Shown here piece by piece: positions 2,727-21,463 of a stretch of 25,732 nucleotides of DNA. Position numbers and translations under genes: made by a program. Under the pieces are notes generated by a model. That model made no database searches. It was not told the DNA's origin and saw only the letters and a list, made by a program, of their open reading frames with translations. Numbering within the stretch: the stretch's first letter is position 1; each line of letters begins with the position of its first letter. Origin of the DNA: a virus; the IMG/VR virus record IMGVR_UViG_3300044949_002002, positions 1 through 25,732 of that record; one strand, written 5' to 3'.

Positions 2727-2829
2727 CGTGGTCGCTCGACGTCGGCGACAGAAATCTCTACGCAGTGTCGCGAACTGATTACTAAGAGTAAGAAATACGA
2801 GAGAAATCGGACTCCGCGTGTGAGAGACC

Positions 2830-2896: not shown

Positions 2897-2927
2897 CCCC
2901 CAACACGTCCACACCACGGAGCCCACC

Positions 2928-3503: not shown

Positions 3504-3507
3504 GCCC

Positions 3508-6238: not shown

Positions 6239-6349
6239 GCAACCTGACAGTTCCCGGCGCGTCTCTACGGCAGAACCCGCCACTCGCACCCGGTGATCCG
6301 CTATCGTGCACGGCACCCGCTGCGACGCCACCGCCCGGAGGTCCACGCC

Positions 6350-6856
6350 GTGCCACCCGCCCAGGCGCTCCCCACCGCCCGGCACATGCAACTCCACCTC
6401 CACACCCTCGACACCGGCGAGATCCGCGTGTCCACCCCGCAGGCCCGCGGCTGGGCCCGCTGCGCCCGCGGCCCCCACCAGCTGTGGCACGCCGTCAACG
6501 AGGCCTACCGGCAAGCCTCTTTGGCGGGGCAGGCGCGGTGGCGGGGTGAGATCTCCGAGCTGGACGCGCTCACCGAGGTCGACGACCCGACCGAACCCGC
6601 CCGGCTGTCGCTGCCGGACGCGGACGAGCTCGCCTCGCGGCGTCTGGTGTCGTACGGGAAGGGGCGGGTGGTGCGGCCGGATCAGGCGTCGCCTGCGACG
6701 TGGACGCCGAATCCGGACGGGTCGTGGTCGTCGCCGAATGGGCGCCGGTTCACGGCGGATTCGGTGATCCGGCCGCTGTTGTTCAAGCGGGCGCAGATGG
6801 GGTTGTCGATCAGCTACGAGCAGTGGGTCGCGGCGCAGACCGAGGTGGCCGGGTGA
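6350..6856 (+). CDS. Hypothetical phage protein, 168 aa
   Basis: I chose the GTG at 6350 because GGAGG lies at 6337-6341, eight bases upstream. A GTG at 6293 in the same frame would add 19 Arg-rich residues and has no ribosome site. The first 65 residues read as a small alpha/beta domain (MQLHLHTLDTGEIRVS, then GPHQLWHAVNEAYRQ). The C-terminal part has TWTPNPDGSWSSPNGRRF and a helical tail ending EQWVAAQTEVAG. I know similar N-terminal sequences only as uncharacterised actinophage proteins. The gene overlaps the next one by GTGA. Codon usage changes from C-ending to G/T-ending near 6530, as in the terminase. No function can be assigned. Confidence 0.6.
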   Translation: MPPAQALPTARHMQLHLHTLDTGEIRVSTPQARGWARCARGPHQLWHAVNEAYRQASLAGQARWRGEISELDALTEVDDPTEPARLSLPDADELASRRLVSYGKGRVVRPDQASPATWTPNPDGSWSSPNGRRFTADSVIRPLLFKRAQMGLSISYEQWVAAQTEVAG

Positions 6857-7236
6857 ACGTCATGCCGGAACCGGACCCGGGCCTGTCGCTCCAGGTCGAC
6901 TCGCGCGGGCTGTCGCTGTACTTGATCAACGGAGCGCCGGGGAACCGGACGAACGTGTACCGCCTCGACGACCTCGACGACTTTCCCCGCCTGTCCGAGC
7001 GGGACCGGGCGATGGTGATGGGGCTGCTCGAGGGAGATCACGTCGAAGCTGGCTGTGCAGCAGTCGGGGGCGTCGGAGTGACCGCGTCCGAGCTGTTGTG
7101 GGAGGCGTGGTGGGCGCTGGTCGCCGCCGTCGCCGTCACCCTCACCGACATCGCCTGGGGCCGGTGGGCAGCCCCCGACCGCGGCGTCACCCAGCGCGAC
7201 TACGCGCTCGCCGGACCGCCCGGAGCCACTCCGTGA
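6853..7236 (+). CDS. Hypothetical protein with possible membrane segment, 127 aa
   Basis: The gene starts at GTG in a GTGA overlap and ends in another GTGA overlap, placing it in a tightly coupled run of small genes. An ATG three codons later is an alternative start. Residues 1-65 are mixed polar, with SLYLINGAPGNRTNVYRLDDL followed by an acidic-aromatic stretch. Residues 78-100 (LLWEAWWALVAAVAVTLTDIAW) form one hydrophobic segment that could cross a membrane. A separate internal GTG at 7078 could in principle start a shorter product, but the frame is continuous. The family is unrecognised. The location between terminase and portal is typical of variable accessory genes. Confidence 0.5.
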   Translation: MNVMPEPDPGLSLQVDSRGLSLYLINGAPGNRTNVYRLDDLDDFPRLSERDRAMVMGLLEGDHVEAGCAAVGGVGVTASELLWEAWWALVAAVAVTLTDIAWGRWAAPDRGVTQRDYALAGPPGATP

Positions 7237-7583
7237 CCGCGGCGCCGCATCTCCTCGACGCCCCACCCGTCGCCCACGACCGGTTCCCCGTCACCATCAC
7301 CACCCACGGACACCCCGCCGGCCTCCAGCAGGTGCCCGAATGCCGCCTCCTCGTCCTCGGCGGCATCGAGCCGCGCGTCCTCGTCTGGCGCGTCCCCGGC
7401 GAGCCGGTGGTCGACCAGCCGCTCGACCCGGCCGCATCCATGATCGGGAACCCGGTCACCGAATGGATCCTCGCCGACGGTGAGGGCCGCTCCGTGGTCG
7501 TGGCCCGCGGCCGCGGCTGCGCCTGCGGCAACCCGCTCAAGGGGTGGCTGCCCGTCTCCCCGTACACGATGTCGACCTTGTAG
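7233..7583 (+). CDS. Hypothetical protein with CxC motif, 116 aa
   Basis: The start is the GTG in the GTGA overlap at 7233-7236; the longer upstream frame is Arg-rich antisense-type sequence. The protein appears largely beta: FPVTITTHG, CRLLVLGG, RVLVWRVPGEPVVDQ and VTEWILADGEGRSVVVARG. It ends with GRGCACGNPLKGWLP, whose Cys-X-Cys together with an earlier Cys (in PECRLLVLG) might bind metal. No family is recognised. It is followed by a 12-base gap with a good ribosome site for the next small gene. Confidence 0.5.
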   Translation: MTAAPHLLDAPPVAHDRFPVTITTHGHPAGLQQVPECRLLVLGGIEPRVLVWRVPGEPVVDQPLDPAASMIGNPVTEWILADGEGRSVVVARGRGCACGNPLKGWLPVSPYTMSTL

Positions 7584-7595
7584 GGAGCCCCTCGC

Positions 7596-7784
7596 ATGAC
7601 CCTCGAACAGCGCGCCCGCACCATCGCCGACGGCCTGGCGGCGGGGTGCACGCGCACGGAGATCCTCGCCGACGTCGAGCGGCTCCGGTCCGACCTGGAG
7701 CGTCTCGGTCTCGGTGGGTGGTCGATCGGGGAGACGGTCGCGTGCATTCCGGACTGGGCGCAGATCCCGATGGCGAGTGGCTGA
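7596..7784 (+). CDS. Small hypothetical protein, 62 aa
   Basis: The ATG at 7596 has GGGAG at 7583-7587 with eight-base spacing, which supports translation. The peptide is helical in its first 40 residues (EQRARTIADGLAAG, then RTEILADVERLRSDLERL) and ends with a Trp-containing hydrophobic tail. It resembles the short helical proteins often found between phage packaging and portal genes, but has no recognisable domain. The 185 bases after it look noncoding. Confidence 0.5.
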   Translation: MTLEQRARTIADGLAAGCTRTEILADVERLRSDLERLGLGGWSIGETVACIPDWAQIPMASG

Positions 7785-7969
7785 TGGCCCGCGCTGGTTC
7801 ACTCTCCGTGCATGGCCAGGTGAGGGCTGCAGCTTCACAACACGCGAGTGCACACCCGTCGCTGCGGTCTCAAGCGCGCGATGAGCGTCAGCGAGCACGA
7901 GAACACAAGACGTGCCTGACCCGAGGAACCGCCCGGCACACACCGTGACGGTCCCTACCGTCCCCCAAC
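7785..7969. other. Intergenic gap before the DUF1360-like gene
   Basis: No convincing gene is present. A 54-codon frame from 7784 to 7948 has third positions near random, unlike every neighbour. Close to the next start, GACGGT (7947-7952) and ACCGTC (7957-7962) form a short inverted repeat with a four-base loop, possibly an operator or hairpin. This is a plausible place for a promoter of the head operon, but no clear -35/-10 pair is visible. Confidence 0.4.
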
Positions 7970-8284
7970 GTGCCCCACTGGACCCGTGACCCGGCCACCC
8001 TCACCGTGCTCGCCGCCGCGTCCTACCGGGTCACGAGGCTGATCACCACCGACCGATTCCCCCCGGCCATCGCCGCCCGGTCGTGGCTCGAACAGCGCGT
8101 CCCCCCGGCCTACGCCCACGGCGTCACCTGCCCCCACTGCATCGGCTTCTGGGTCGCACTCGCCGCCGTCGCCATCACCGAGACCGCCACGCGCCGCGGC
8201 CACCTCCACCGTGTCCGGCTCGCCGCCGCACCCTGGGCCATCGCCACCGCCATCGGCATCCTCGCCGACCACGAGGTCCACTGA
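7970..8284 (+). CDS. DUF1360-like integral membrane protein
   Basis: The 104-aa protein starts with GTG at 7970; no strong Shine-Dalgarno is visible, and no other start fits the frame better. It shows the DUF1360-type pattern: LAAASYRVTRLITTDRFPP at residues 14-32, then TCPHCIGFWVALAAVA at 53-68. Cys54 and Cys57 sit just before a membrane segment, and a second hydrophobic stretch lies near 84-99. Proteins of this type occur in Gram-positive phages and genomes; their function is not known to me. It ends one base before the portal start, so the two are probably co-translated. Membrane location is inferred from the hydrophobic segments. Confidence 0.7.
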   Translation: MPHWTRDPATLTVLAAASYRVTRLITTDRFPPAIAARSWLEQRVPPAYAHGVTCPHCIGFWVALAAVAITETATRRGHLHRVRLAAAPWAIATAIGILADHEVH

Positions 8285-8285
8285 C

Positions 8286-10883
8286 GTGGGAATCCTCGAC
8301 CGCATCGCCAACCAGATCATCGGCCCCGACCCCACCACCGGGCCCACCTACACCCCCCAGCGGCCGTTGACGGCGTCGGGCGCCCGCGTGAACCTCCGCA
8401 GCCCGTCGCTGGTCCATACGAAGCACCCGGATTGGCAGCAGGCCGCCTGGAACTACCGCGACAGCGTCGACGAACTCCGCTACGCCGCCACCTTCGTCGC
8501 CAGCTCGCTGGGTCGCCTCCGCGTGTTCGCCGCCCAGAACCGGCCCCGCGGCGAAGACCCCTCCCCCCTCGACCCCACCGGCACCATCCCCCAAGCCGTC
8601 GCCGCCGCCGACGGCATCGAGGACGCCACCCGCGCCGCCGCCCTCGCACTCGTCGAACGCCTCAACATCAACGCCCACGGCAACACCCTCCTCGGCCGCA
8701 TGGCCGAAAACTTGGAGATCGCCGGCGAGTGCTACCTCCTCGGCGAACTCGACGACGAAGGCCTCGAACAGTGGTCCATTCGCTCCGTCCGTGAACTCGT
8801 CATCACCCAGGGCGGCGCCCGCCTCGTCGACCCCGCCGGTGGCATGGTCACCCGCGAACTCGACCCCGACCGCGTCGACGTGCTCCGCCTGTGGACCCCG
8901 CACCCCGCGTACGCCGAGTGGCCCGACGCCCCCACCGCTACCCAGCTCGGCACCCTCGAAGGCATGGTGCTGCTGGCCCGCCGAGGCCGCGCCCACGACC
9001 GCTCCCGCATCTCGTCGGGGAAGGCGCTGTTCCTGCCCGAGGAGCTGTCGCTGACCCGGCCGGGTGGCGCACCCGTCGACCCCGCCGAGCCGGGCGTGTT
9101 CGACGACGACGCCGACGACCCGTTCATGGCCAGCCTGATCGAGGCGATGGTCACGCCCATCCAGAACGAGGACGACCCCTCCGCCGTCGTCCCCCTGCTG
9201 ATCCGCGGCCCGTCCATGGCCGGGGACAAGCCGATGAAGGACGTCATCGGCGTCATCAACCTCCACGGCGAAGACCCCAAGGACCTCGACTCCCGCTACG
9301 AAGCCCTCGTCCAACGCCTCGCGCGCGGCCTCGACCTCGCCCCCGAGCGGGTGCAGGGCATGGGGTCGACGAACCACTGGTCGGCGAACACCATCGCCGC
9401 CGACGAGGTGAAGGTCCACATCGAGCCGCGCGCCGAGCGCATGTGCGACGCCCTCACCGCCGCTTACCTGCGGCCGGCGCTCAAGGCCATGGGCATCCCC
9501 GCCGAGCAGCGGAACAAGGTGTGCCTCTGGTACGACCCCGCCGAGCTGGTGCAGAACCCCAACCCGGAGGAGCGCGCCGCCCGCGCCCACGACGCGGGGA
9601 TCATCTCCGACGAGGCCTATCGACGGGAACTCGGGTACGACGCGAAGGACGCTCCGGAGAAGGTGGAGCGGCTCCTGCGGTCGCTGGTGCAGGGCCGCGC
9701 CTACGAGGCCAGCATCCCGTTCATCGTTGGGCTGTCTGGCTTGGACTTCAACGACCCGCAGATCAGAGATGCGATCACGTTCGTGAAGCAGTTCGGGTCG
9801 GCGGCCGGCGGCGGTTCGGCGCCGCGGCAGATCGTGGACGCCACCCCCACCACCGCGCGGCCGGCGGGAGCGCCACCACCCGCGGGAGACCGGCAGGCAC
9901 CACCGGCCCCGGCCGGGGTCACCGCCGCCGCGTCGACGCAGTGGCGGGTCGAGCGGAAGGCCGGCCGGCAGCTCGCCCGCATCGACCGCGACCTCACCAC
10001 CGCGCTGCACGCCCACCTCGAAGCCGCCCTCGACCGCGCCGTGGAGAAGGCCGCGAACCGGCTCCGCGGGCAGCACGCCCGCAAGAGCTCCCCGCTCGTC
10101 GCGAGCTTCCCCGCCGGCGCCGACCCGCGGCCGATCGTCGCCGAAGCCGGACGAGTCATGGCCGGCCCGCTGTCGGACAGCGACCTGTTCGACGACGCCT
10201 TCGGCATGCTCGAACGCGCCTGGCTCCGCGACGCCGACGCTGCGGCCGAGCAGGTCGCCGACATCCTCGACCAGCTGCTGCCCGCCCCGCAGGCGCTCGC
10301 CGCGTCCGCCCGAGCCGACCGGGTCCGCGACGAGCTCCGCACCAACGCCCGCAAGGCGGCGGGGTGGATGCTCACATGGGCGAAGCGGCGCGCCGCCGAG
10401 CTGCTGTACGGCGAGACCGGTGACCAGCAGCCCGTCCCCGTCAGCGTGCCCCGCCGGGTCGTCACCGAGACCGGCGGGGTGCCCGCCCAGCACCCGGGGT
10501 TCGACGACCAGACCGGGCAGCTCGCCCTCGACCCCGCCGGGATCCGACCTGCCGCGTCCGGGCCGGGCACCGGCCAGGTTGCGCTGTCCGAGCTCAAGGT
10601 CGCGGGCGGTGTCGTCATGGGCCACGAGTGGGACTACGGCGTCGCACCCCGCAACACGTTCGAACCGCACCGGCGGCTCGACGAGACGGTGTTCGAGTCC
10701 TGGACAGACCCGCAGCTGAAGGTCGGCGCCGAGGACCGGTGGCTCGGCGCCGAGTACTTCTCGCCCGGCGACCACCAGGGCTGCCGCTGCACCACGGCCC
10801 CCATCGCGATCATCCCGATGGTTGCCGACCCCGACCCCGGCGGCGCCCAGGCGCTGCGTTCGACGATCTTCGGAGGCCAGTGA
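8286..10883 (+). CDS. Portal protein fused to MuF-like minor head domain
   Basis: The 865-aa protein begins with GTG at 8286, preceded by GAGG at 8273-8276. Residues 1 to about 530 match actinophage portal proteins. They include an early NYRDSVDELRYAATFVASSLG helix, WSIRSVRELVI, SALFLP-like ISSGKALFLPEEL, and a stem/crown region with GMGSTNHWSANTIAADEVKVHIEPR. After a Pro/Ala linker (about 525-555) comes a helical MuF-like domain. It ends with GDHQGCRCTTAPIAI near residues 829-843, the His/Cys-X-Cys signature typical of MuF-type proteins. The portal forms the dodecameric DNA channel, and MuF domains act at the portal interior or as injected proteins. Fusion of the two is uncommon relative to separate genes but known. 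The sequence does not reveal whether the product is cleaved. Confidence 0.85.
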   Translation: MGILDRIANQIIGPDPTTGPTYTPQRPLTASGARVNLRSPSLVHTKHPDWQQAAWNYRDSVDELRYAATFVASSLGRLRVFAAQNRPRGEDPSPLDPTGTIPQAVAAADGIEDATRAAALALVERLNINAHGNTLLGRMAENLEIAGECYLLGELDDEGLEQWSIRSVRELVITQGGARLVDPAGGMVTRELDPDRVDVLRLWTPHPAYAEWPDAPTATQLGTLEGMVLLARRGRAHDRSRISSGKALFLPEELSLTRPGGAPVDPAEPGVFDDDADDPFMASLIEAMVTPIQNEDDPSAVVPLLIRGPSMAGDKPMKDVIGVINLHGEDPKDLDSRYEALVQRLARGLDLAPERVQGMGSTNHWSANTIAADEVKVHIEPRAERMCDALTAAYLRPALKAMGIPAEQRNKVCLWYDPAELVQNPNPEERAARAHDAGIISDEAYRRELGYDAKDAPEKVERLLRSLVQGRAYEASIPFIVGLSGLDFNDPQIRDAITFVKQFGSAAGGGSAPRQIVDATPTTARPAGAPPPAGDRQAPPAPAGVTAAASTQWRVERKAGRQLARIDRDLTTALHAHLEAALDRAVEKAANRLRGQHARKSSPLVASFPAGADPRPIVAEAGRVMAGPLSDSDLFDDAFGMLERAWLRDADAAAEQVADILDQLLPAPQALAASARADRVRDELRTNARKAAGWMLTWAKRRAAELLYGETGDQQPVPVSVPRRVVTETGGVPAQHPGFDDQTGQLALDPAGIRPAASGPGTGQVALSELKVAGGVVMGHEWDYGVAPRNTFEPHRRLDETVFESWTDPQLKVGAEDRWLGAEYFSPGDHQGCRCTTAPIAIIPMVADPDPGGAQALRSTIFGGQ

Positions 10884-10888
10884 TGGCG

Positions 10889-11476
10889 TCAATAGCCGTC
10901 GGGAAGACCGTGGTCACGTCGAAACTGTGCGACTGCGGATGCAGCGTCGGTCTCCGTCGGGAAGTAGCCGAGCGCCTTGCGCTTACCACTGAGCGAGGAG
11001 TACGCGACCCAGCTCTTTCGGTCTCGGTTCCAGCTGACACCTCGGAACGCCGAGGTGCCCTTGCCGTTGCGGATCGCTTGGTGGGCGATGTTGCGCTGGT
11101 GTTCGACGATGCGCAGGTTCTCCCGCCGGTCGTCGAGTACCCGGCCGTTGATGTGGTCGCCTTCGCGCGGGTCGCCGTGGCTCAGGCCGAGGACCAGGCG
11201 GTGCAGCAGGATCGTGCGCGAGTCCTGGCGGCCGCCGATGCGCGAGGCAACGTAGCCGGTGCTCGCCATGACGTACCAGTGGAAACCGCGGAGCAGCGGC
11301 TCGTCCTCCGGGGAGTACTGCGCGACGAACCTCTGATCCGTCTTCCAGTGGGTGATGACGAGCAGTCCGGCGTCGTACCGATTTGGGATAGCGTGGGACA
11401 CGTCGACTCCAACCAGTCGGCCACGCCCCCGGGCCGGGTACCAGCCGGTCGCGGGGGTCTCTTGTGCCTCGATCAT
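10889..11476 (-). CDS. HNH homing endonuclease with AP2 DNA-binding domain
   Basis: This 195-aa minus-strand gene sits between portal and protease genes read the other way, with its stop five bases past the portal stop. Residues 91-127 carry the HNH core: His92 in LLHRLVLGL, Asp107-His108 in GDHINGR, and Asn120 in RRENLR. Residues 139-187 (KGTSAFRGVSWNRDRKSW, then ALGYFPTETDAASAVAQF) match the AP2-type DNA-binding domain common in HNH_3 proteins. Free-standing homing endonucleases of this kind cut an allele lacking them and spread by repair. Third codon positions are more mixed than in neighbouring structural genes, which fits recent acquisition. No good ribosome site precedes the ATG, so expression may be weak. 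Confidence 0.9.
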   Translation of the reverse strand: MIEAQETPATGWYPARGRGRLVGVDVSHAIPNRYDAGLLVITHWKTDQRFVAQYSPEDEPLLRGFHWYVMASTGYVASRIGGRQDSRTILLHRLVLGLSHGDPREGDHINGRVLDDRRENLRIVEHQRNIAHQAIRNGKGTSAFRGVSWNRDRKSWVAYSSLSGKRKALGYFPTETDAASAVAQFRRDHGLPDGY

Positions 11477-11494
11477 ACCGAAAGAACGCAGGTC

Positions 11495-11500
11495 AGGAGG
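11495..11500 (+). promoter_or_regulatory. Ribosome binding site AGGAGG for the capsid protease
   Basis: AGGAGG ends five bases before the ATG at 11506. It decides against the in-frame GTG at 11464, which would place 14 extra residues across the start of the minus-strand endonuclease gene. Confidence 0.8.
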
Positions 11501-11505
11501 CTTGC

Positions 11506-12489
11506 ATGACTGAGATGAGCGCCGTTCAGAACGCGGACGGAGGCTGGGAGTTCGCCCAGGCCGTCGTCGCGGCCGGGATCCCGGTCAAGCCCCCGCGAGC
11601 CTGGTTCGACGACCCGCAGCTCGACGGCCCGACTGCTCTCACCGTGACCGCGGATGGGCGGGTCTACGGCCACGCCTGCGCGTGGAACGTCCGCCACATC
11701 GGGCTCCCTGGGAACCGCACCGCGCCCCGGTCCCGGACGAACTACCGGCACTACCTCACCGGGGAGGTCGAGACCGACGACGGCAGCATGGTCGCGACCG
11801 GCCGGATCACCATGGGGGCTGGGCACGCCAGCCTCGACGGTGACATCGTCGCGGCCACCGAGCACTACGACAACGTCTGTTCGGCGATCGCTGATGTGAC
11901 CTGCGGCGAGGACGCACACGGTCTGTGGTTCGCCGGCGCCCTGCGACCCACGGCGACCCCGACCGATGTCCGCGTGCTGCGCGCCTCGTCGGTCTCGGGG
12001 GACTGGCGCGGTATCGGGCAGGGGCTGGAGCTGTGCGGGATCCTCGCAGTCAATATCCCCGGGTTCAGCACCCCGAGGGCGAACATCGCCGCCTCGGGTC
12101 GAGAGGTCACCTCGCTCGTCGCAGCAGGAGTCATCGCACGTTCCGTCAACCCTGAGGAGGAGCCCGTCGTGGCCGCACCCACCCCGCCCCCCGCCCCGCC
12201 CGCCGACGATGTGGCCCCGGCACCGTCGGGGGCGCCGCAGCCCGGGGACATGGTGTCGATCGGTGACACCGGCCTGTCCGGTGAGGTGATCGAGGCCGAC
12301 GAGGACGGCGTGCACGTCGAGGTGGTGTGCTCCCCGGACGACCTGCTGCCGGCGACCCCGGAGGACGCGCTCGCGGCGTCGGCGTGGGGCCGGAAGCTGT
12401 CGGCGACGGTCGCGGCGCAGGGCGCGGAGCTGCGCGGCATGCGGGCGGAGCGGCTGCTGGCCGACCTGCCGATGGGGGAGGGGTCGTGA
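11506..12489 (+). CDS. Capsid maturation protease
   Basis: The 327-aa protein has the actinophage head-protease layout: RAWFDDPQLDGPTALTVT at residues 31-48, GRVYGHACAWNVRHIG at 51-66, then VATGRITMGAGHAS (96-109) with His107. TEHYDN at 118-123 supplies His120, and SSVSGDW at 161-167 supplies candidate serines. From family knowledge these fit a His/Ser-type assemblin-like protease that clips scaffold or capsid precursors; the exact nucleophile cannot be proved here. After residue 225 a Pro/Ala linker leads to a tail with SIGDTGLSGEVIEADEDGVHVEV, a small beta domain, and a helical end. This tail may bind the shell or scaffold. The gene ends in a GTGA overlap with the SGNH gene. Confidence 0.75.
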   Translation: MTEMSAVQNADGGWEFAQAVVAAGIPVKPPRAWFDDPQLDGPTALTVTADGRVYGHACAWNVRHIGLPGNRTAPRSRTNYRHYLTGEVETDDGSMVATGRITMGAGHASLDGDIVAATEHYDNVCSAIADVTCGEDAHGLWFAGALRPTATPTDVRVLRASSVSGDWRGIGQGLELCGILAVNIPGFSTPRANIAASGREVTSLVAAGVIARSVNPEEEPVVAAPTPPPAPPADDVAPAPSGAPQPGDMVSIGDTGLSGEVIEADEDGVHVEVVCSPDDLLPATPEDALAASAWGRKLSATVAAQGAELRGMRAERLLADLPMGEGS

Positions 12490-14585
12490 CCAGTCCGTAT
12501 GGGGTGTTCCCGTCGGGTCCGTTCGATCCGCGGTATGGGCAGTACCGGAACGAGGGTGGGGTGTTCTATCCGCCGGTTCCGACTCGGGTGGAGTCGGCGG
12601 AGGAGGTGCGGGACATCATCGGTGCGGCGCTGCGCGCAGGCACCAACGTCAGCATCGTGGTGGATGACTCCGGGGACACCATCACCATCTCCGCGACCGG
12701 CGGCGGTGGGGGCTCCTACACCGACGAGCAGGTGCGGGACGCGGTAGCGGCTGCGCTGCGCGCCGGGACCGGGGTGACGATCACCAACGACGACGCGGGC
12801 GACACGATCACGATCGCCGCGACTGGCGTCGTGACCGGGCTGGCTGAGCAGCGCGCCGTCACCCTTGCCCGGGCGAAGGGCTCGGCCATGGTCCGGCAGA
12901 TGACCGCTGCCCCGCCGTACGCGCCACTGCTCATGGACTCCCCGCCGGTCGTCACCCACGGCACCTCGGTCACCTCTGGGCTGACTGCTACCTATGGCGC
13001 CGAGCGGGTTCGCTGGACCGGGCCACTGTCCGCGACACCCGCGCTGGCCGGGGCGATGCAGCCGCGCGGTACCACCTCGGGCACTACCGGTGATGCGAAC
13101 TGGAACGCCCGTGCCGCCGAGATGTGGTTCGACTTCGACGGCCGCTACCTCGACCTGAACATGCGCTGCAACGCGTCGGTGCGCTACCGCGTGTGGATCG
13201 ACGGGGAAGCCGCCACCCCCGACTTCGTCCCGCTTCCATCGGGCACCAACGCCAACGGGTTCGTCAAGTTCGACTTCGGCGCCGCCCGCAGGGAGCGGCC
13301 CCGCCGGATCCTGATCGAGTGGGAGGACCAGTCCGCCGCGATCCAGATCCTCGCCATCCGCGCGAACCCCACCGATTACCTCGCCCCGTCCCCCGGTGGG
13401 CAGCGCTGGATCTGGGTCGGCGACTCCCAGGCCCGCGGCACCGGACCCACCCGCGAGTCGTTCGCCTACGCCCGCACCGTCGGCCGGATGCTCGGCATCA
13501 CCGACTTCTGGCACATCGTGTCGTCGGCGCCCGGGACCGGGCTCGTACACGCCAACGACGCCAGCATCGGCAACTACGGCAGCCGAGCCCAGTACGACGT
13601 CATCCCGTACCTGCGGGCCGGGGACATGCTGGTGGTACAGGGCTCGGTCAACGACTACCAGCAGGCCGGCAACGTCGGACCCGCCCTGGCCGCCTACGTG
13701 GAGCAGGTCCGCGCCGCCGTCCCCGACGTCGGCATCATCGTCACCGGCCTGGCCTACATCGGCACCCCGGACGCCGACCGGACCACGATCAACACCGAAC
13801 TGAAGAACAAGGCTGCGGAGTTGGGTCTCCCGTTCGTCGACCCTCTCGATCCACTCGTGTTCGGCGGCACCGGCCGTTCCACTGGCCCCACCGGCGACGG
13901 ACCCGCCGACTGGGGGCGCGCTGCCGACTACACCCACTTCACCGACGCTGGGGCGTGGGTGTTCGGACGACGCCTCGCCGCTCTGATCGGCCGGGCCGTC
14001 GGCATCCCGACCGGCGACCTCAAGCTCAACCGTCAGAGCGTCGGCACGCTCACCCCGGCCCTTCCCTCCGCCACCTACTTCTACCCCGTCTCTGCAGGTG
14101 CCCGCGGCACCTCGGCCATGCTCGGGAACAGCAACATGCGGGCGGCGCCCTGGCAGACCGAGAGGTCCGTGTCGCTGGCCCGGATCGGCGTCGACATCTC
14201 CGGCGCCGGACAGTCCGGTGCAGTCGTGCGGCTCGGGGTCTACGCCGACAACGGCCAGGGCTACCCCGGTGCACTCCTCGTTGACGCCGGGACCGTGGCT
14301 GCCGACACCACTGGCGTGAAGGAAGCGACGATCGCGCTGGCACTCCCGCCCGGGTTGTACTGGCTCGTCGCCTGCGTGCAGGACGCCCCGACCACCCAGC
14401 CCACCGTGCGGACGGTCGCCAACTGGACCCCAGACGTCCCGATCGGGCTGGGCACCGGTACCCCGGTAGCCGACGCCGTCATCGTCGGGTACGCCGCGGG
14501 AGCCCCTGCGGCATTCCCCGCGTCGTTCCCGACCGGCAACGCAGGGTCGGGTTCCGCGGCACGCGTCTTCCTGCGGACCGCCTGA
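12486..14585 (+). CDS. SGNH/GDSL esterase with N-terminal fibre-like repeats, candidate virion-associated deacetylase
   Basis: The 699-aa protein starts at GTG in a GTGA overlap. Residues 39-72 and 81-114 are two copies of a unit containing VRD, AALRAGT and GDTITI. This unit type is familiar from trimeric phage fibre and minor tail proteins. Residues 120-300 are beta-rich. The hydrolase domain follows: block I WVGDSQARG at 310-318 with Ser314, block III QGSVND at 385-390, and block V DYTHF at 481-485 with Asp481 and His484. A second beta-rich domain (510-699) may bind glycan. SGNH enzymes of this type remove acetyl or other esters from polysaccharides. The catalytic set is complete, so activity is plausible. 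The odd point is location: inside the head operon, between protease and capsid. Confidence 0.85.
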   Translation: MTSPYGVFPSGPFDPRYGQYRNEGGVFYPPVPTRVESAEEVRDIIGAALRAGTNVSIVVDDSGDTITISATGGGGGSYTDEQVRDAVAAALRAGTGVTITNDDAGDTITIAATGVVTGLAEQRAVTLARAKGSAMVRQMTAAPPYAPLLMDSPPVVTHGTSVTSGLTATYGAERVRWTGPLSATPALAGAMQPRGTTSGTTGDANWNARAAEMWFDFDGRYLDLNMRCNASVRYRVWIDGEAATPDFVPLPSGTNANGFVKFDFGAARRERPRRILIEWEDQSAAIQILAIRANPTDYLAPSPGGQRWIWVGDSQARGTGPTRESFAYARTVGRMLGITDFWHIVSSAPGTGLVHANDASIGNYGSRAQYDVIPYLRAGDMLVVQGSVNDYQQAGNVGPALAAYVEQVRAAVPDVGIIVTGLAYIGTPDADRTTINTELKNKAAELGLPFVDPLDPLVFGGTGRSTGPTGDGPADWGRAADYTHFTDAGAWVFGRRLAALIGRAVGIPTGDLKLNRQSVGTLTPALPSATYFYPVSAGARGTSAMLGNSNMRAAPWQTERSVSLARIGVDISGAGQSGAVVRLGVYADNGQGYPGALLVDAGTVAADTTGVKEATIALALPPGLYWLVACVQDAPTTQPTVRTVANWTPDVPIGLGTGTPVADAVIVGYAAGAPAAFPASFPTGNAGSGSAARVFLRTA
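12600..12701 (+). repeat. Fibre-like protein repeat, unit 1
   Basis: This codes for residues 39-72 of the SGNH protein. Unit 2 starts 126 bases later. Both share VRD, AALRAGT, a V-I/T core and DxGDTITI. Confidence 0.75.
12726..12827 (+). repeat. Fibre-like protein repeat, unit 2
   Basis: This codes for residues 81-114 of the SGNH protein and matches unit 1 at most hydrophobic and Gly/Asp positions. A Gly-rich hinge (GGGGG) separates the two. Confidence 0.75.
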
Positions 14586-14588
14586 CCC

Positions 14589-14612
14589 CCGGCGCAACTC
14601 ATCTTGCGCCGG
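14589..14612 (+). terminator. Hairpin after the SGNH gene
   Basis: CCGGCGCAA (14589-14597) and TTGCGCCGG (14604-14612) form a perfect 9-bp stem with a six-base loop, four bases after the SGNH stop codon. There is no T-run after it, so it may be an imperfect intrinsic terminator or an RNA-stabilising end. Its position at a convergent junction supports a transcript boundary. Confidence 0.65.
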
Positions 14613-14665
14613 AAACCGCAGCTCACTGCCCCACCGCAACCACACGGTGAGCAGCACTCCCCGCT

Positions 14666-14692
14666 GGCCCGACCCCACCCCGGGGTCGGGCC
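14666..14692 (-). terminator. Hairpin after the minus-strand coiled-coil gene
   Basis: GGCCCGACCCC (14666-14676) and GGGGTCGGGCC (14682-14692) form a perfect 11-bp stem with a five-base loop. It lies eight bases past the stop of the minus-strand gene, as expected for that gene's terminator. No T-run follows on the minus strand. The stem is symmetric, so it could act on both strands. Confidence 0.65.
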
Positions 14693-14699
14693 GGCGCGG

Positions 14700-15209
14700 T
14701 CAGCGACGAGGCCAGCGCTTCACCATCGCGTCGAGCTCCGCCGCCCGCCGCTGCCGGGCCGCGGTCTTGGCCGCCAGCGCTGCGTCCTCCGCCGCCCGCC
14801 CATCCAGCTTCGCGGCGACGCCCGGCCACTGCTCCCGCAGCTCGGCCGCCATCCGCTCGTACTGGGCCGCCGACCCGGGCATCCCCGCCTCACGCTGCCG
14901 GACAGCCCACTCGCCGTACTGGCGGATCTGCCGCTCCGCCAACGCCGCATCCGCCGCGGTCCGACCCGCGGCCTTGTCCTGCCGCCACTGCGCCTGCTCG
15001 GCCGCGGCCGCCTCGTAGTCGGCCGCCCGTTCCCGGGCCGCCGCGATGTCGCCGCTGTAGTCCACCGGCCGCGCCGGCGCCGCGGGCTGCGTCGCGGCCT
15101 GGCCCAGCTTCCGCCCGGCCCGCTTCAACGATCGCGTCGTCCGCCCGGAGAAAACCCGCCCCGACGCCCGGAACGGGCCCGGCAACGGAATCGACCAACG
15201 CAGCCCCAT
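14700..15209 (-). CDS. Hypothetical coiled-coil protein, antisense within the head operon, 169 aa
   Basis: The ATG is the complement of 15207-15209; a TTG three codons earlier is an alternative. Third codon positions in this frame are nearly all G or C, and the residue mix (Glu, Gln, Asp, Tyr, Lys) is protein-like, while the opposing plus frame is Arg/Pro nonsense. The N-terminus WSIPLPGPF is followed by a basic segment (RTTRSLKRAGRKLG). Residues 50-165 are a long Ala/Glu/Arg/Gln-rich helix likely to form a coiled coil. No signal peptide, membrane segment or catalytic motif is seen. It is divergent from the capsid gene and convergent with the SGNH gene. Its own orientation and hairpin suggest independent expression, as for moron genes. 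I do not recognise the family. Confidence 0.65.
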   Translation of the reverse strand: MGLRWSIPLPGPFRASGRVFSGRTTRSLKRAGRKLGQAATQPAAPARPVDYSGDIAAARERAADYEAAAAEQAQWRQDKAAGRTAADAALAERQIRQYGEWAVRQREAGMPGSAAQYERMAAELREQWPGVAAKLDGRAAEDAALAAKTAARQRRAAELDAMVKRWPRR

Positions 15210-15408
15210 ACCCGCCAATCGCCGCAGATCAGCAGGTCGTTACCGGCGACCCGAGGAATCACCCGGCCACCACCCACCCATCCGGCACCGTCCCCACCAG
15301 AACGACCCCCGCCGGCCCGCCCAGCAGGCCACCCCCCGGGGTCGCGCCCGACGAGCGCCCAGCGCCACGGCACACACCCTCCCCACCCCCACGGAAGGCC
15401 CCGAAGCC
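15210..15408. other. Divergent intergenic region upstream of the capsid gene
   Basis: This 199-bp, C-rich interval lies between the start codons of the minus-strand coiled-coil gene and the capsid gene. It should therefore hold promoters for both, yet I see no convincing -35/-10 pair. GGAAGG at 15393-15398 is the likely capsid ribosome site, 10 bases before the ATG. Confidence 0.45.
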
Positions 15409-17181
15409 ATGGCATGGGACGACGTCCTCCAGGACCTCACCAACGTCGACGACGACCGCCTGCACTCCGCCCGCGACGAGATGGTCGCCCGCATCAACGA
15501 GCTCCGCCCCAAGGCCGCCGACCGCAGCCTCACCGACGAGGAGCTCACCGAGCTGCAGGAGCTGTCGCAGACCTACCAGCAGGTCAACGGGCAGGCCACC
15601 GAGCGGCAGACGCGCCGCGACGAGCAGTACGCCGCCGCCGACCAGGTCCTGGCCGACATCCCGGAGCCCGGCACCGAGCAGCCCCCCGCCGAGGACCCGG
15701 AGCAGTCCGAGGAGCCCAGCGAGAACGACGACACCCCGGCCGAGGCGCCCGCCGAGGACGACACCACCAGCGACACCGAGGCCGACATGAACGCAGCCCA
15801 GCCGGTCGCCGCCGGCGCGAAGGTCCCCGCGCTCGGGAAGACGTCGAAGGCCGCCCCCGCCAAGAAGGCCGCCGGCGCGCAGGCGTCCATCGCGATCGTC
15901 GCCGCCGCCGACCTGCAGGACCGCGGCGCGGGCACCCCGCTGCAGTTCGACGAGATCGGCCGCGCCATGGCGAACCGGCTGCAGGCGCTGCGCGCGTCCT
16001 CCGCCGGCGGTGACGGCGAGCAGGTGTCCGTTGTCAAGATGGTCGCCTCCGGTGTCCCGGAGGAGCGGCACGTCCGCGAGTCCGACCACTGGGGCCGCAA
16101 CACCGCCAAGTTCGACGCCGTCGCCTCCCCGGGCGCGATCGTCGCCGCCGGCGGACTGTGCGCCCCGCTGGCCATCGACTACTCCTACCAGGCCATCGGT
16201 GTCCAGGGCCGCCCGATCCGCGACAGCCTGCCCGCGTTCCAGGCCGAGCGCGGCGGCATCCAGTTCCGGCCGGACATCTCCCCGGTCACGAACACCTCCA
16301 ACACCGGCCCGCGGTCGGCCACCGGGATCTGGACCAACCAGAACGACGTCGACGCCTACGCCGCGTCCAACCCGCCCCGCAAGGCCGTGTGGATCGTCGA
16401 CTGCCCCGACACCGCGACCGCGCAGGTCGAGGCCATCACCCTGCAGCTGGAGTTCTCCAACGTCACCTCCCGGTTCGACCCGGAGACCGTGCAGGCCAAC
16501 CAGCACGCCGCCCTCGTGTGGCACGACCGGTTCGCCGAGAACAACCTGCTGGCGAAGCTGCAGTCCGCGTCGAAGGTGATGACCTCCGAGCAGGTCCTCG
16601 GCGCGACCCGCGACGTGCTCGTCACCCTCGACCGCGCCCAGTCCTACTACCGGTCGGTGCACCGCCTCGGCGACAACGTGTCCCTGCGTGCGATCCTGCC
16701 GTTCTGGGTGCGGCACATGCTGCGCGCCGACCTCACCCGCGCGATGTCGATGACCCCCACCGAGGGGCTCGCGATCACCGACGAGCAGATCGACAGCTTC
16801 CTGCGGTCCCGCGGCCTGAACCCGGTGTGGCACCTCGACGGGAAGGACTCCGAGACCGCTGCGGTCACCGGCCCGCCGGCGATCCCGGCGATCCCGGCGC
16901 AGCAGTACACGCTCGCCGCGGTGGGCGCGTCGGTGCCGAAGCACCCGACGACGATCGACATGCTGCTCCACGCCGAGGGGCACTTCACGTTCCTCGACGG
17001 CGGCACCCTCGACCTCGGCATCGTCCGCGACTCCAGCCTGATCGACCGGAACCGGTACCGGCAGTTCACCGAGACCTGGGAGGGCGTCGCCGCCCGCGGC
17101 GTCGAGGCGCTCCGCCTGCTGGCGAAGGTCGCCCCGACCGGTGAGTCCGCCGGCACCGTCGACGTCACGGCCGCGCAGTAA
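15409..17181 (+). CDS. Major capsid protein with N-terminal scaffold-like region
   Basis: The 590-aa protein starts at an ATG with GGAAGG at 15393-15398. Residues 1-75 are helical and charged (RDEMVARINELRP, then DEELTELQELSQTYQQVN), like the delta/scaffold domain of HK97-type capsids. Residues 85-130 are an acidic linker rich in Glu, Asp and Pro, and 135-160 are Lys/Ala-rich. The shell domain follows from about 165: GDGEQVSVVKMVASG, a Gly/Ala segment SPGAIVAAGGLCAP, and a long helix region QANQHAALVWHDRFAENNLLAKL. The C-terminus has HAEGHFTFLDGGTLDLGIVRDSSLIDRN, typical of actinophage capsid proteins. The acidic linker is a plausible protease target, fitting the protease gene upstream. Position and length support the main shell subunit. 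Confidence 0.82.
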   Translation: MAWDDVLQDLTNVDDDRLHSARDEMVARINELRPKAADRSLTDEELTELQELSQTYQQVNGQATERQTRRDEQYAAADQVLADIPEPGTEQPPAEDPEQSEEPSENDDTPAEAPAEDDTTSDTEADMNAAQPVAAGAKVPALGKTSKAAPAKKAAGAQASIAIVAAADLQDRGAGTPLQFDEIGRAMANRLQALRASSAGGDGEQVSVVKMVASGVPEERHVRESDHWGRNTAKFDAVASPGAIVAAGGLCAPLAIDYSYQAIGVQGRPIRDSLPAFQAERGGIQFRPDISPVTNTSNTGPRSATGIWTNQNDVDAYAASNPPRKAVWIVDCPDTATAQVEAITLQLEFSNVTSRFDPETVQANQHAALVWHDRFAENNLLAKLQSASKVMTSEQVLGATRDVLVTLDRAQSYYRSVHRLGDNVSLRAILPFWVRHMLRADLTRAMSMTPTEGLAITDEQIDSFLRSRGLNPVWHLDGKDSETAAVTGPPAIPAIPAQQYTLAAVGASVPKHPTTIDMLLHAEGHFTFLDGGTLDLGIVRDSSLIDRNRYRQFTETWEGVAARGVEALRLLAKVAPTGESAGTVDVTAAQ

Positions 17182-17187
17182 CCGGTC

Positions 17188-18060
17188 ATGGCGATCCAGA
17201 TGCTGGCCCAGGCGCCAGCCGTGGCAGCAGCGCCCCGCGCACTCGGGGCGCTGCTGACCGCCGCCATCCCCGGCGACCCGGACACCGACTGGGGCAAGGG
17301 CGTCATCACCTGGCCCGAGGCCGCCGCCGGGTGGCGGACGGTCGCCGACTGCGCACCGGCCACGGTCGCCTACGACTACGGCATCGCCGCCGACCCCGTC
17401 GGCGCGATCCCGTTCGTCATCCAGACCGTCACCAAGTGTCCCCGCATCGGCCTCGACCTCCTCGTCCAGCGCGCGACCCGGCAGCTCGAAGCCGTCACCT
17501 CCCAGGCGATGGCCCGCGAGCTGTGGACCGGGGACCTCACCCGGGCCGAGCCGTTCACGCTCCCCGACGGGGTGCCGTTCACGCTGGCGAACCCCCGCCC
17601 CGGGGCGGGCACCGATGTGGCTGGGCCGTGGCTCAACCCGCACCTGGCCGCGGCGGAGATGCTCGACCCCGTCTCGCATCCCGCCGAAGCCGTCGGCGCC
17701 GTCGAAGCCGCGTCGGCGGACAAGGTCGCGGGCGGGCCCCTCTACATCCACATCCCGGTCGACTACCTCATGCCGCTGTCGCAGTTCGGGCTCCGCTACG
17801 ACGGCAACGTCATGCGCACCCCGCTCGGCTCGATCGTGGTGTGCGACGCCGGCTACACCGGCACCAACGGCCAGGCCGGGCCGCCCGCCGTGTACGCGAC
17901 CGGCCCCGTCGTCGCCTGGGCCGGTGAGCCGCTCGTGCACTCCGACCCCGCCTCGATCGTCGAGCTCGGCACCAACGCCGTCGGCGTCCACGCCGAGCGC
18001 GCTGGCCTCGTCTTGTTCGACCCGCAGACCGCGACCGGCTGCGAACTCACCCCCGCCTGA
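17188..18060 (+). CDS. Second head structural protein (possible minor or pentamer capsid protein)
   Basis: The 290-aa ORF starts with ATG seven bases after the capsid stop; its ribosome site is weak, suggesting coupling to capsid translation. The pattern YDYGIAADPVGAIPFVIQT, RATRQLEAVTSQAMARELWTG (about 92-112), PLYIHIPVDY (about 184-193) and MRTPLGSIVVCDAGY (about 210-224) resembles small HK97-fold or encapsulin-like shell proteins. In that reading, the TPLG segment belongs to the P-domain/A-domain core. In some actinophages a second capsid-fold protein forms pentamers or a minor shell component; this could be one. A decoration or neck protein is the alternative. A structural role is quite likely from synteny; the fold assignment is tentative. 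Confidence 0.55.
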   Translation: MAIQMLAQAPAVAAAPRALGALLTAAIPGDPDTDWGKGVITWPEAAAGWRTVADCAPATVAYDYGIAADPVGAIPFVIQTVTKCPRIGLDLLVQRATRQLEAVTSQAMARELWTGDLTRAEPFTLPDGVPFTLANPRPGAGTDVAGPWLNPHLAAAEMLDPVSHPAEAVGAVEAASADKVAGGPLYIHIPVDYLMPLSQFGLRYDGNVMRTPLGSIVVCDAGYTGTNGQAGPPAVYATGPVVAWAGEPLVHSDPASIVELGTNAVGVHAERAGLVLFDPQTATGCELTPA

Positions 18061-18083
18061 CCCGGAAGGAACGGAACCCTCCC

Positions 18084-18746
18084 ATGGCCTACAACAAGTC
18101 CGGGATGCTCCAGGCGGTCCTCGCCCGGTTCACCCGCATCGACATCACCGGCAAGCCCATCGTCGGCCCGAAGAACTGCTTCTGGACCGACTCCCTGATC
18201 TCGATGCAGCACACGATGGCCTACGTCAAGCAGGACGACATCACCATCACCAACGGCTCCGGGAAGGTCTGCATGACCTACTCGCCGCCGCAGACCGCGC
18301 TGCGCCTCGACATCGCGAACATCAACTTCTGCTACCCGGACCCCGAGGCCATCGAGTTCCTCGCCGGCGGCGCCATCTTCAACGGTGCCGGCGCGGCCGC
18401 CGACCAGGCTCTCGGGTACGCGTTCCCCGCGATCGGGACGGACCCGAAGCCGTTCGGTGTCGCGATGGAGCTGTGGTCGAGCCAGGTGCAGAACGGCGCG
18501 ATCGTCGGCTACTTCCACTGGCTCCTGCCGCGGGTGTTCCTGCAGTTCACCAAGAACCAGGACCTGGACGGGAAGAACGCCTACGACACCGGTCTCGACG
18601 GGATCGCGGTGGAGAACCCGATGTTCGGGACCGGCCCGAAGGACGACATCGACTGGCCGCTCACCAGCCGGATCGGGCAGTGGATGCAGGAGCCGGGGCT
18701 GCCGAACTACACCTACGGCTACGACGCCGTGGTCGCCCAGTCCTGA
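18084..18746 (+). CDS. Probable major tail (tube) protein
   Basis: The 220-aa protein has GGAAGG-type sequence about 15 bases before its ATG. It is beta-rich with few charged helices: ITGKPIVGPKNCFWTDSL, then DDITITNGSGKVCMTY (about 52-67), IEFLAGGAIFNGAG (91-104), GVAMELWSSQVQ and FHWLLPRVFLQF. The succession of a strand-rich core, an FLAGG-like turn and WxLPRVxL resembles tail-tube proteins of actinophages. No other tube candidate lies between the connector genes and the tail chaperones, where this gene usually sits, so it appears displaced to just after the capsid. The strong hairpin at 18758-18792 directly after it suggests it shares the highly expressed capsid transcript. A decoration protein is the main alternative. 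Confidence 0.55.
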   Translation: MAYNKSGMLQAVLARFTRIDITGKPIVGPKNCFWTDSLISMQHTMAYVKQDDITITNGSGKVCMTYSPPQTALRLDIANINFCYPDPEAIEFLAGGAIFNGAGAAADQALGYAFPAIGTDPKPFGVAMELWSSQVQNGAIVGYFHWLLPRVFLQFTKNQDLDGKNAYDTGLDGIAVENPMFGTGPKDDIDWPLTSRIGQWMQEPGLPNYTYGYDAVVAQS

Positions 18747-18757
18747 CCCGACACCCG

Positions 18758-18792
18758 GGGGTCCGCGCCGAGCTCCCCGCGGCGCGGACCCC
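18758..18792 (+). terminator. Perfect 12-bp hairpin after the probable tail-tube gene
   Basis: GGGGTCCGCGCC (18758-18769) and GGCGCGGACCCC (18781-18792) are perfect complements with an 11-base loop. It begins 12 bases after the stop codon and ends 26 bases before the next start. There is no T-run. It may reduce read-through so that capsid and tube transcripts exceed connector transcripts. Confidence 0.7.
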
Positions 18793-18817
18793 GCTCGTCC
18801 TGTGATCGGAGGTGGGG

Positions 18818-19558
18818 ATGGTGGAGCCGCTGCGGCTGATCTGTGCGCCGTGGGCGACGGTCGACGACCTCCCCACCGGCGGTGACCGCCCGGTCGAGCT
18901 GGACGATGCTGCGTGGACCGACCTGCTGTGGCAGTCCTCCGAGATCCTCTACAGCTTCTCGGGTCGCCAGTTCTCCGGCGGCTGCGCCTCGACGGTCATC
19001 CTGGACAGGCTCCCCGGCGGGACGGGCTACTGCGCAGCCTGGACGCCGATGGGAGTCGACGCCGCCACCGCCGTTGGCGGTGCGCGGCCGGTGCGGTGGG
19101 CCCGGGATCAGATCGTGGCGGTCCTCCCGGGCTCACCGGTCACCTCCGTCCAGTCGGTCACCATCGCCGGTACCCCGGTGGACTTCGAGGTGCGGCCGGC
19201 GTCGGGGCAGATCTGGCGGGCCGACCGTCGGCCGTGGCCGCTCGACGGGACCGCGGCGATCACCTACCGGCACGGGCTGGCCCCGGACGCCGGTGGCCGG
19301 CGTGCCGCGGTGCTGCTGGCGCTCGAGCTGGGGAAGGCCGGCGCCGGCCTGGACTCGGACCTGCCGCGCCGGATCTCCAGCATCACCCGGGAAGGGGTGT
19401 CGATCGGGATGCTCGACACCTTCGACCACCTGGACAAGGCCCAGACCGGCATCTTGGAGATCGACATGTGGTTGGCGGCGGTCAACCCGGCCAGGTTGCG
19501 TCGTCGGCCGTCGGTCGTGTCGGTCGACATGCCCCGCACCTACAGGAGGATCTCGTGA
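18818..19558 (+). CDS. Head-tail connector (adaptor) protein
   Basis: I chose the ATG at 18818 because GGAGG lies at 18808-18812; the GTG at 18812 overlaps that site. The 246-aa protein begins RLICAPWATVDDLP. It then has DDAAWTDLLWQSSEILYSFSGRQFSGG (about residues 29-55), a helix-plus-Cys pattern I associate with head-to-tail adaptors of actinophages. The middle is beta-rich (VTSVQSVTIAGTPVDFEV), and the end has REGVSIGMLDTFDHLDKAQTGILEIDMWLAAVNP followed by an Arg-rich tail. Adaptors of this class bind under the portal. The gene overlaps the next one by GTGA and leads the connector operon. Confidence 0.75.
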   Translation: MVEPLRLICAPWATVDDLPTGGDRPVELDDAAWTDLLWQSSEILYSFSGRQFSGGCASTVILDRLPGGTGYCAAWTPMGVDAATAVGGARPVRWARDQIVAVLPGSPVTSVQSVTIAGTPVDFEVRPASGQIWRADRRPWPLDGTAAITYRHGLAPDAGGRRAAVLLALELGKAGAGLDSDLPRRISSITREGVSIGMLDTFDHLDKAQTGILEIDMWLAAVNPARLRRRPSVVSVDMPRTYRRIS

Positions 19559-19857
19559 CCGACCCGTTCAGGGCTCGCCCCCGCACCCCGGAGCCGGTGC
19601 AGCCGGATGCTGCTGTCGACGGTCAGGCCGAGACGACCACGGCCGGTCAGGGCGCGACCCAGGTGGCTCAGCCGGACCGGGCCACGGACGCCGGCCGTCC
19701 GGACACCGACCACCAGGAGCGGCAGGACGACCCCCGGTCGCGGGCCGCGCTGGAGGGCATGACCCGCGCGCAGCTGCAGTCCCTGGCCCGTAAGCGCGGT
19801 GTGAGCGACGGCGGGAACAAGGCGGCGCTGGTCGACCGGCTCGTCGACGAGTCCTGA
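19555..19857 (+). CDS. Small protein with C-terminal SAP/HeH-like domain
   Basis: The 100-aa protein starts at GTG in a GTGA overlap, with AGGAGG at 19544-19549, so it should be translated well. Residues 1-60 are Asp, Gln, Thr and Pro-rich and likely disordered. Residues 68-99 (MTRAQLQSLARKRG, then GGNKAALVDRLVD) match the helix-extended loop-helix pattern of SAP, HeH or Rho-N domains, which commonly bind nucleic acid. Such small proteins occur near connector genes in actinophages. A role in holding DNA at the neck or in recruiting RNA is possible; neither is shown by the sequence. Confidence 0.7.
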   Translation: MTDPFRARPRTPEPVQPDAAVDGQAETTTAGQGATQVAQPDRATDAGRPDTDHQERQDDPRSRAALEGMTRAQLQSLARKRGVSDGGNKAALVDRLVDES

Positions 19858-19865
19858 CCGCCGCT

Positions 19866-20351
19866 GTGATCGACGTCGTCGCCCCCTGCCAGCGGCTCCT
19901 CGACCACATCGTCGCCTGCGAGACCGACGAGTGGAAGCTGCCCGCGGCCCGGTACGTCGCCGCGGGTGACGGTCCGGCGTGGGACGGGCGGGAGCACCTG
20001 CTGGTCGGGCTCACGCAGATCGCGCCCGGCAGCTCGGACGGGTCGGACTCGCCGATCGGGCCGGGCCGCGGTCTGGGGCAGATGACGATGCCGCGGGCGT
20101 CGCTGATGGTGCGGCTGCTCCGCAAGGTCACCACGATCGACGCGAACACCCGCATCCCGGCCGCGAGCATGCTGCACGCCGATGGCCGTCGCGTCCTGGC
20201 CGACGCCGGCCCCCTGCTGAACGCGATCATCACCTGGCTGGCCGTCGAGCAGGTCACGAAGGAAGCGACGTGGGGGCAGCTCGAAGCGATCGGCCCCGAA
20301 GGCGGCTACGCCGGGCACCTGGCCGTCGTCACGATCTCCCCCATCCAGTAG
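19866..20351 (+). CDS. Probable neck or tail-terminator protein
   Basis: The 161-aa protein starts with GTG eight bases after the previous stop. It opens with a helix (VAPCQRLLDHIVACETDEW), followed by mixed segments with RASLMVRLLRKVTTID and PLLNAIITWLAVEQVTKEA. It ends in a likely strand (GHLAVVTISPIQ). Head-closure and tail-terminator proteins of siphoviruses have comparable size and occupy this place, between adaptor and gp10-like genes. The assignment rests on synteny, and I see no diagnostic motif. Confidence 0.5.
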   Translation: MIDVVAPCQRLLDHIVACETDEWKLPAARYVAAGDGPAWDGREHLLVGLTQIAPGSSDGSDSPIGPGRGLGQMTMPRASLMVRLLRKVTTIDANTRIPAASMLHADGRRVLADAGPLLNAIITWLAVEQVTKEATWGQLEAIGPEGGYAGHLAVVTISPIQ

Positions 20352-20366
20352 CAGAAGGGACCTGCG

Positions 20367-20777
20367 GTGGCGTCGGCGAAGATCTCGGTCAGCCTCACCC
20401 CGGCGACGGTGCGGCAGCAGGGCGGCCGCATCAACGCCAAGGACCTCCCCGGTGTCCGCCGCTCCATGACCCGCCGCACGAAGCGAGTCGCGGCCCTCGC
20501 CCGCGCCACCGCCCCCATCCGGACGGGCCGCTTGAAGCGGTCGATCAAGTCGAACATGAAGGGCTCGACCGGTGAGGTGTCGGTCGGCGGCCCCGGGGTG
20601 CCCTACGCCTCCCCGGTGATCTTCGGGGCGCGGCCGCACATCATCCGCCCGAAGAAGAAGGGCGGCATGCTGCGCTTCGAGGCGGGCGGCACGGTCGTGT
20701 TCGCCCGGCAGGTCGCGCATCCTGGCAACCGCCCGAACCCGTTCCTGGTGCGAGCTCTACGCGCTGCGAAGGAGTGA
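20367..20777 (+). CDS. HK97 gp10-like tail completion protein
   Basis: The 136-aa protein starts with GTG at 20367, with AGAAGGGA shortly upstream. It shows the HK97-gp10 pattern: ALARATAPIRTGRLKRSIKS (about 43-62), VSVGGPGVPYASPVIFGARPH (about 71-91) and a C-terminal FARQVAHPGNRPNPFLVRAL. In known phages this family works at tail completion or the head-tail junction. A very basic composition before residue 60 fits this family. It closes the connector operon, and three inverted repeats follow in the 84 bases before the chaperone gene. Confidence 0.8.
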   Translation: MASAKISVSLTPATVRQQGGRINAKDLPGVRRSMTRRTKRVAALARATAPIRTGRLKRSIKSNMKGSTGEVSVGGPGVPYASPVIFGARPHIIRPKKKGGMLRFEAGGTVVFARQVAHPGNRPNPFLVRALRAAKE

Positions 20778-20783
20778 GCCCCC

Positions 20784-20860
20784 GGGGCGAACGCATTCGT
20801 GCCCCAGTCCTCGTGGGCTGTTCGACGACCCGAGGACTACGCGGCGACACACAGTCGCCG
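20784..20860 (+). promoter_or_regulatory. Leader with three inverted repeats before the tail chaperone start
   Basis: GGGGC-GAA (20784-20791) pairs with TTC-GT-GCCCC (20796-20805) with a bulge. GTCCTCG (20807-20813) pairs with CGAGGAC (20831-20837). CGGCGAC (20842-20848) pairs with GTCGCCG (20854-20860), directly before the ATG at 20862. The last stem occupies the place where a Shine-Dalgarno would be. The first may end the upstream transcript; the last could limit initiation of the chaperone. Confidence 0.5.
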
Positions 20861-20861
20861 T

Positions 20862-21455: not shown

Positions 21456-21463
21456 GCACCTGG

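Follow-up and report, generated by a model that had tools for sequence, protein, structure and literature searches.

Carbohydrate esterases of family CE2 (2wao, 2waa, 2w9x and 4xvh) combine a beta-sandwich with an SGNH domain over about 280-296 residues; they are bacterial or fungal enzymes and lack virion modules. Glycan-modifying domains are also known from virus particles. The capsid turrets of HFTV1 bear galactose-binding-like and deacetylase-like domains (PMC12494034), and gp17 of phage Rosebush, a capsid decoration protein, is proposed to aid host recognition (PMC7150772). In Gordonia phages of the DV cluster, a variable esterase/lipase/hydrolase region has been reported within the structural genes (PMC11955846). 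A limited search of the open-access literature found no description of a wider slot pattern beyond the DV phages.

The DNA analysed here, called the window, is a stretch of 25,732 nt (IMGVR_UViG_3300044949_002002, positions 1 to 25,732). Its head gene block includes a gene for a protein with a CE2-like core, flanked by modules of the kind found on viral spikes (Table 1). We consider it likely that this protein is carried on the virion, is encoded in an interchangeable slot and acts as a glycan esterase, which would deacylate surface polysaccharide in adsorption.

Table 1. Positions in the window of the esterase gene, its predicted domains and residues, and neighbouring genes
Feature	Position	Strand	Basis or remark
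Capsid maturation protease	11506..12489	+	overlaps esterase start
Predicted CE2-like SGNH carbohydrate esterase gene with spike-type modules	12486..14585	+	699 aa
N-terminal stretch, residues 1-38, possible virion anchor	12486..12599	+	anchor role proposed
Repeat 1, residues 39-72	12600..12701	+	self-alignment
Repeat 2, residues 81-114	12726..12827	+	self-alignment
Beta-sandwich domain of CE2-like core, about residues 162-300	12969..13385	+	profile and predicted fold
SGNH hydrolase domain, about residues 305-510	13398..14015	+	Pfam, alignment, predicted fold
Ser314, predicted catalytic (GDS)	13425..13427	+	invariant in relatives
Asn389 (GSVND)	13650..13652	+	invariant in relatives
Asp481-His484 (DYTH)	13926..13937	+	invariant in relatives
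C-terminal beta domain, residues 526-699	14061..14582	+	PHROG 25864/21562, fold of 9jwb_Z
Opposite-strand ORF between esterase and capsid gene	14700..15218	-	172 aa; no homologue found
Major capsid (hexamer) protein	15409..17181	+	hexamer type
Probable capsid pentamer protein	17188..18060	+	PHROG 779; same position as Donny pentamer gene

The esterase gene and its domains

The esterase ORF begins with GTG, overlaps the stop of the protease gene and is backed in its frame by codon-position G+C. An earlier note on this DNA had placed it between the protease and major capsid genes; this position holds, but the esterase and capsid genes are not adjacent: between them lie 0.82 kb holding an opposite-strand ORF with no homologue detectable in our searches. 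A scan for terminators and promoters was empty, which at 72% GC carries no weight either way. The order of the hexamer gene and the probable pentamer gene is that of Mycobacterium phage Donny, in which the pentamer gene comes after the hexamer gene.

The protein matches Pfam Lipase_GDSL_2 over residues 311-490 with 45.7 bits (cut-off 32.9; E=1.3e-11). It contains the motifs GDS (312-314), GSVND (386-390) and DYTH (481-484), and D313, S314, G352, N389, D390, D481 and H484 are all invariant in an alignment with four relatives. The full GDS, SVND and DxxH set described in the earlier note (S314, N389, D481, H484) is therefore present, and both the profile match above the curated cut-off and the conserved Ser, Gly, Asn and His (with Asp) place the protein among the SGNH/GDSL enzymes; ester hydrolase activity is predicted from its sequence. 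Relatives were obtained through domain alignments. Direct searches for related loci with the window protein, and likewise with a second query (A1), found none, and a single-sequence phmmer search of the PDB gave no match.

A profile built from five relatives matched the CE2 esterase 2wao (E=2.5e-5) across both the beta-sandwich and the SGNH domain. The full-length model of the protein is weak (mean pLDDT 53, with residues 1-165 lacking a usable model), and a model of the core by itself has a mean pLDDT of 65 and a pTM of 0.66. This core model matched CE2 structures with Z 19.6-23.6 over 279-296 residues. With profile and predicted fold in agreement across two domains, the core (about residues 162-510) is CE2-like in architecture and on this basis a CE2-like carbohydrate esterase, which sharpens the SGNH esterase reading of the earlier note. 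Identity to the CE2 enzymes is low (14-19%), so only the label 'CE2-like' is used. The best structural match of the core model is the acyltransferase SsfX3 (Z 24.5), which has the same architecture; thus hydrolysis by the core is a prediction.

The two fibre-type repeats noticed earlier align without gaps at 24/34 identical positions, a score reached in 0/2000 shuffles. Similar repeats occur in a 'tail protein' of Erythrobacter phage XM05, and repeats of this type were otherwise found only in tail or unannotated proteins. No homologues of residues 1-38 were found, the matches starting from residue 35.

The C-terminal domain is likewise predicted to be beta, as had been claimed (pLDDT about 80-89 across most of residues 560-640), and matches PHROG 21562 (7e-16) and PHROG 25864 (3e-7). 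ORF25 of Anabaena phage A-4L matches PHROG 25864 as well (E=1e-5), and its sequence is that of chain Z in the capsid asymmetric unit of cyanophage A4 (9jwb_Z), which aligned with the full-length window model with Z 17.9 over 175 residues. ORF25 thus shares both the profile match and the fold. Aligned directly by hhalign, the C-terminal profile and ORF25 matched weakly (probability 5.9), so that the link depends on the common PHROG and the fold. In contrast to the window protein, ORF25 is a stand-alone protein of 202 aa without an enzyme, from a cyanophage. The fold is not restricted to capsids, as it also matches the Bxb1 tail tip (Z 12.2). The same domain is carried by an SGNH protein in DumpTruck, by lyase-like proteins with a beta-helix in GTE5 and Outis and by a Zucker protein annotated as glycoside hydrolase; the homologues in Zucker and in two further loci (L021 and L022) are encoded within or after the tail module. 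In another locus (L020, 5912-10528), ORFs resembling, by eye, glycosyltransferases, oxygenases and methyltransferases lie in the head block between the major head protein and adaptor genes, ahead of a fibre with the window-type C-terminal domain.

The capsid gene neighbourhood was compared across 71 loci that encode a relative of the capsid protein and in which the protease and capsid genes are both complete. The protease-capsid gap is mostly 60-210 bases, with small inserts in a few, and an SGNH gene was found in this gap in 0/71, which makes the esterase gene an insertion within its capsid lineage. In many of these relatives (L032-L104) the protease ORF spans 1400-2000 aa, against 341 aa in the window.

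Related cores in other actinophages

Related SGNH cores, on differing N-terminal anchors, are encoded in the portal-to-adaptor block in eight other actinophage contexts: the loci L110 (IMGVR_UViG_3300037119_004183), L113 and L114, the phages ScarletRaider, JKSyngboy, Hollow and phiScoe10, and the DV-cluster (Lambovirus) phages of Gordonia. The L110 protein, encoded between the major head protein and adaptor genes, is 48% identical to the window protein over residues 90-509, but it lacks the C-terminal domain and has another N-terminus and another capsid family beside it. The DV gp4 'esterase', for example that of GOATification, is encoded between the portal and major capsid genes and has the same beta-sandwich and SGNH core, being 34% identical to the window protein over residues 132-508, with a different N-terminus and in a different capsid gene set. 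GOATification gp4 lacks the window-type C-terminal domain, whereas DumpTruck gp4, which is built differently, carries it. The earlier note had held that no host-range protein is expected at such a position. With related cores in head-block slots of several unrelated actinophages, and with the DV region already described (PMC11955846), this premise is too strong and is rejected; the window esterase is instead part of a recurrent pattern of similar enzymes in comparable slots of unrelated actinobacterial viruses.

Related core genes also lie elsewhere, namely between the major tail protein and tape measure genes in LibertyBell, ahead of the terminase gene in L112 and after the tape measure gene in OneUp. 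Head-block location in 9/15 contexts corresponds to a binomial P between 8e-5 and 0.015 when the block is assumed to make up a share of 0.15-0.30, a value that is only indicative because members were collected for their similarity to a head-block protein and the lineages are not strictly independent; the members located elsewhere were counted by hand, several without a context check.

The N-terminus of the L113 protein matches phiC31 gp49, a tail-module gene product, and that of L114 matches tail-fibre PHROGs; an hhalign comparison of the Hollow-type and phiC31-type N-terminal domains did not support common ancestry (probability 1.1). The cores of JKSyngboy and Hollow are 74% identical and sit on unrelated N-termini. 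Both N-termini, that of Hollow with about 150 aa and that of JKSyngboy with about 45 aa, recur at comparable positions in many Gordonia phages, with 111 and 97 matching records, respectively, in all, some of them not through the N-terminus. Other C-terminal parts on these anchors are annotated as glucosaminyl deacetylase, LipC-like lipase, hydrolase, esterase or minor tail protein. In these two Gordonia slots the anchor is found again in many phages and the remainder is variable. No match was found between the Kroosvirus-slot anchors and the candidate decoration genes of the cluster B phage Donny.

As part of the best explanation, the slot is probably an interchangeable enzyme position that recurs in actinophage head blocks. 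A broader proposal is decidedly more tentative: actinophages in general may have a capsid-mounted slot for swappable glycan enzymes, held by lineage-specific anchors from head-block genes, which would trim the host envelope before the tail engages. The CE2-like esterase, the glucosaminyl deacetylase and the lipase would, on the same tentative footing, be the enzymes exchanged in such a slot. If it is capsid-mounted, the recurring slot would be a more interesting finding than the single protein. Automated annotation of slot genes is inconsistent, the names ranging over esterase, hydrolase, minor tail, hypothetical and head decoration. In the Gordonia phages ScarletRaider (L018, 5857-6954) and Sixama (L011, 4053-7910), genes annotated as ADP-ribosyltransferase lie in the portal-to-protease interval.

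Proposed role and site of attachment

From these comparisons we infer incorporation into the virion, an oligomeric state, a substrate and a role. The esterase would be a virion-borne adsorption enzyme, probably oligomeric, in which the N-terminal region with its two tandem repeats may serve as anchor and shaft. The CE2-like core would act on a surface polysaccharide of its actinobacterial host and strip it of O-acyl groups, most likely O-acetyl, and the C-terminal A-4L-type domain may bind the particle or the glycan. A Dit gene and a gene for a 1491-aa tail fibre-like protein come after the tape measure gene of this phage; the fibre reading was made by eye, and the protein matches no PHROG or Pfam family. 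With a separate tail fibre-like gene present, the esterase is not the sole candidate adsorption protein, and it would act ahead of the fibre, binding and trimming the outer glycan before the latter commits the phage to infection.

The earlier note had left a choice between a capsid-attached enzyme and a host-range gene situated in the head block. Attachment to the head surface is slightly favoured, with confidence that stops short of even, over attachment to the tail or neck. As a head decoration, the protein would stand on the capsid exterior in the manner of an HFTV1 turret, docked by its A-4L-type domain or its N-terminus, with the CE2-like enzyme perhaps facing the host glycan. The head-block position in nine actinophage contexts is consistent with this, although the position of a gene is no proof of the position of its product. 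The A-4L protein homologous to the C-terminal domain was solved as part of a capsid asymmetric unit, yet its gene is located between tail fibre genes. PHROG 9703, which covers related SGNH cores, is named 'head decoration', but as an annotation of unknown origin this name carries little weight. Capsids also vary among the slot phages, so that a single docking mode cannot fit all, and the anchor of the window protein is without a homologue. Precedents are available in Rosebush gp17 (PMC7150772) and in the HFTV1 turret head protein gp31, which joins a sugar-binding-like domain to a glycan-modifying enzyme on the capsid (PMC12494034). Unlike the window protein, whose enzyme domain is SGNH and not a zinc polysaccharide deacetylase, gp31 is of the zinc deacetylase type and belongs to an archaeal virus, and the likeness is a functional analogy only.

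It is quite possible instead that the protein is an ordinary host-range enzyme on a tail or neck spike, whose gene happens to be in the head block. This is suggested by the tail-fibre-type N-termini of L113 and L114, by repeats in the window protein that resemble those of tail proteins and by the occurrence of its modules on products of genes grouped with tail genes, and also by the tail spike gp63.1 of G7C, which has the SGNH fold in common with the core model (Z 16.1). A tail or neck spike leaves unexplained, however, why the placement between portal and adaptor is repeated in unrelated phages, and the capsid homologue of the C-terminal domain in A-4L also argues against it. That the product is not a virion component at all, being a moron-like or secreted late lipase/esterase or a recent insertion without a role in adsorption, is improbable. 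The insertion is unique within its capsid lineage, adjoins the homologue-less opposite-strand ORF and has an HNH/AP2 endonuclease-like gene nearby, and related cores weakly match a moron-class 'lipase' PHROG. The protein nevertheless has repeats and a virion-type C-terminal domain, no signal peptide is apparent in it by eye, and the enzymes related to it are joined to anchors found repeatedly in the Gordonia slots.

If the slot product is on the head, many actinophages, including Gordonia phages grown in the laboratory, would carry capsid glycan enzymes; in the literature covered, such an enzyme has so far been shown structurally for the turret of an archaeal virus. Even with attachment to the tail or neck, a slot of recurring anchors and variable enzymes shows where host-range determinants outside the tail module could be sought. 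Culturable phages that bear the slot make the question of location directly testable.

The phage

A second contig, IMGVR_UViG_3300045999_011051 (51,515 bases), overlaps window positions 15488-25732 and 1-7026 with 99.98% identity, and the two combined join up consistently into a circle of 59,973 bases. Window positions 7027-15487, with the portal, HNH/AP2-like, protease and esterase genes, are absent from the second contig. A nucleotide search found no close phage. This phage encodes an integrase together with weakly FtsK-like, DUF5753/HTH and DUF6879 proteins; the set maps to L013 at 2332-4162 (-), 29-1222 (+) and 6006-8189 (+). The gene set suggests a temperate phage, with an actinomycete as its presumed host. 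The combination of integrase, FtsK-like, DUF5753 and DUF6879 proteins recalls actinomycete integrative elements.

The HNH endonuclease-like gene occupies 10889-11476 (-) in the portal-protease interval and also encodes an AP2 domain; both domain matches are below the Pfam cut-offs. Elsewhere in the window, positions 2132-2418 match their own reverse complement at 67%; a primase-like gene (ending at 2286) and an opposite-strand ORF (2276-2929) converge here, with apparently similar C-terminal sequences.
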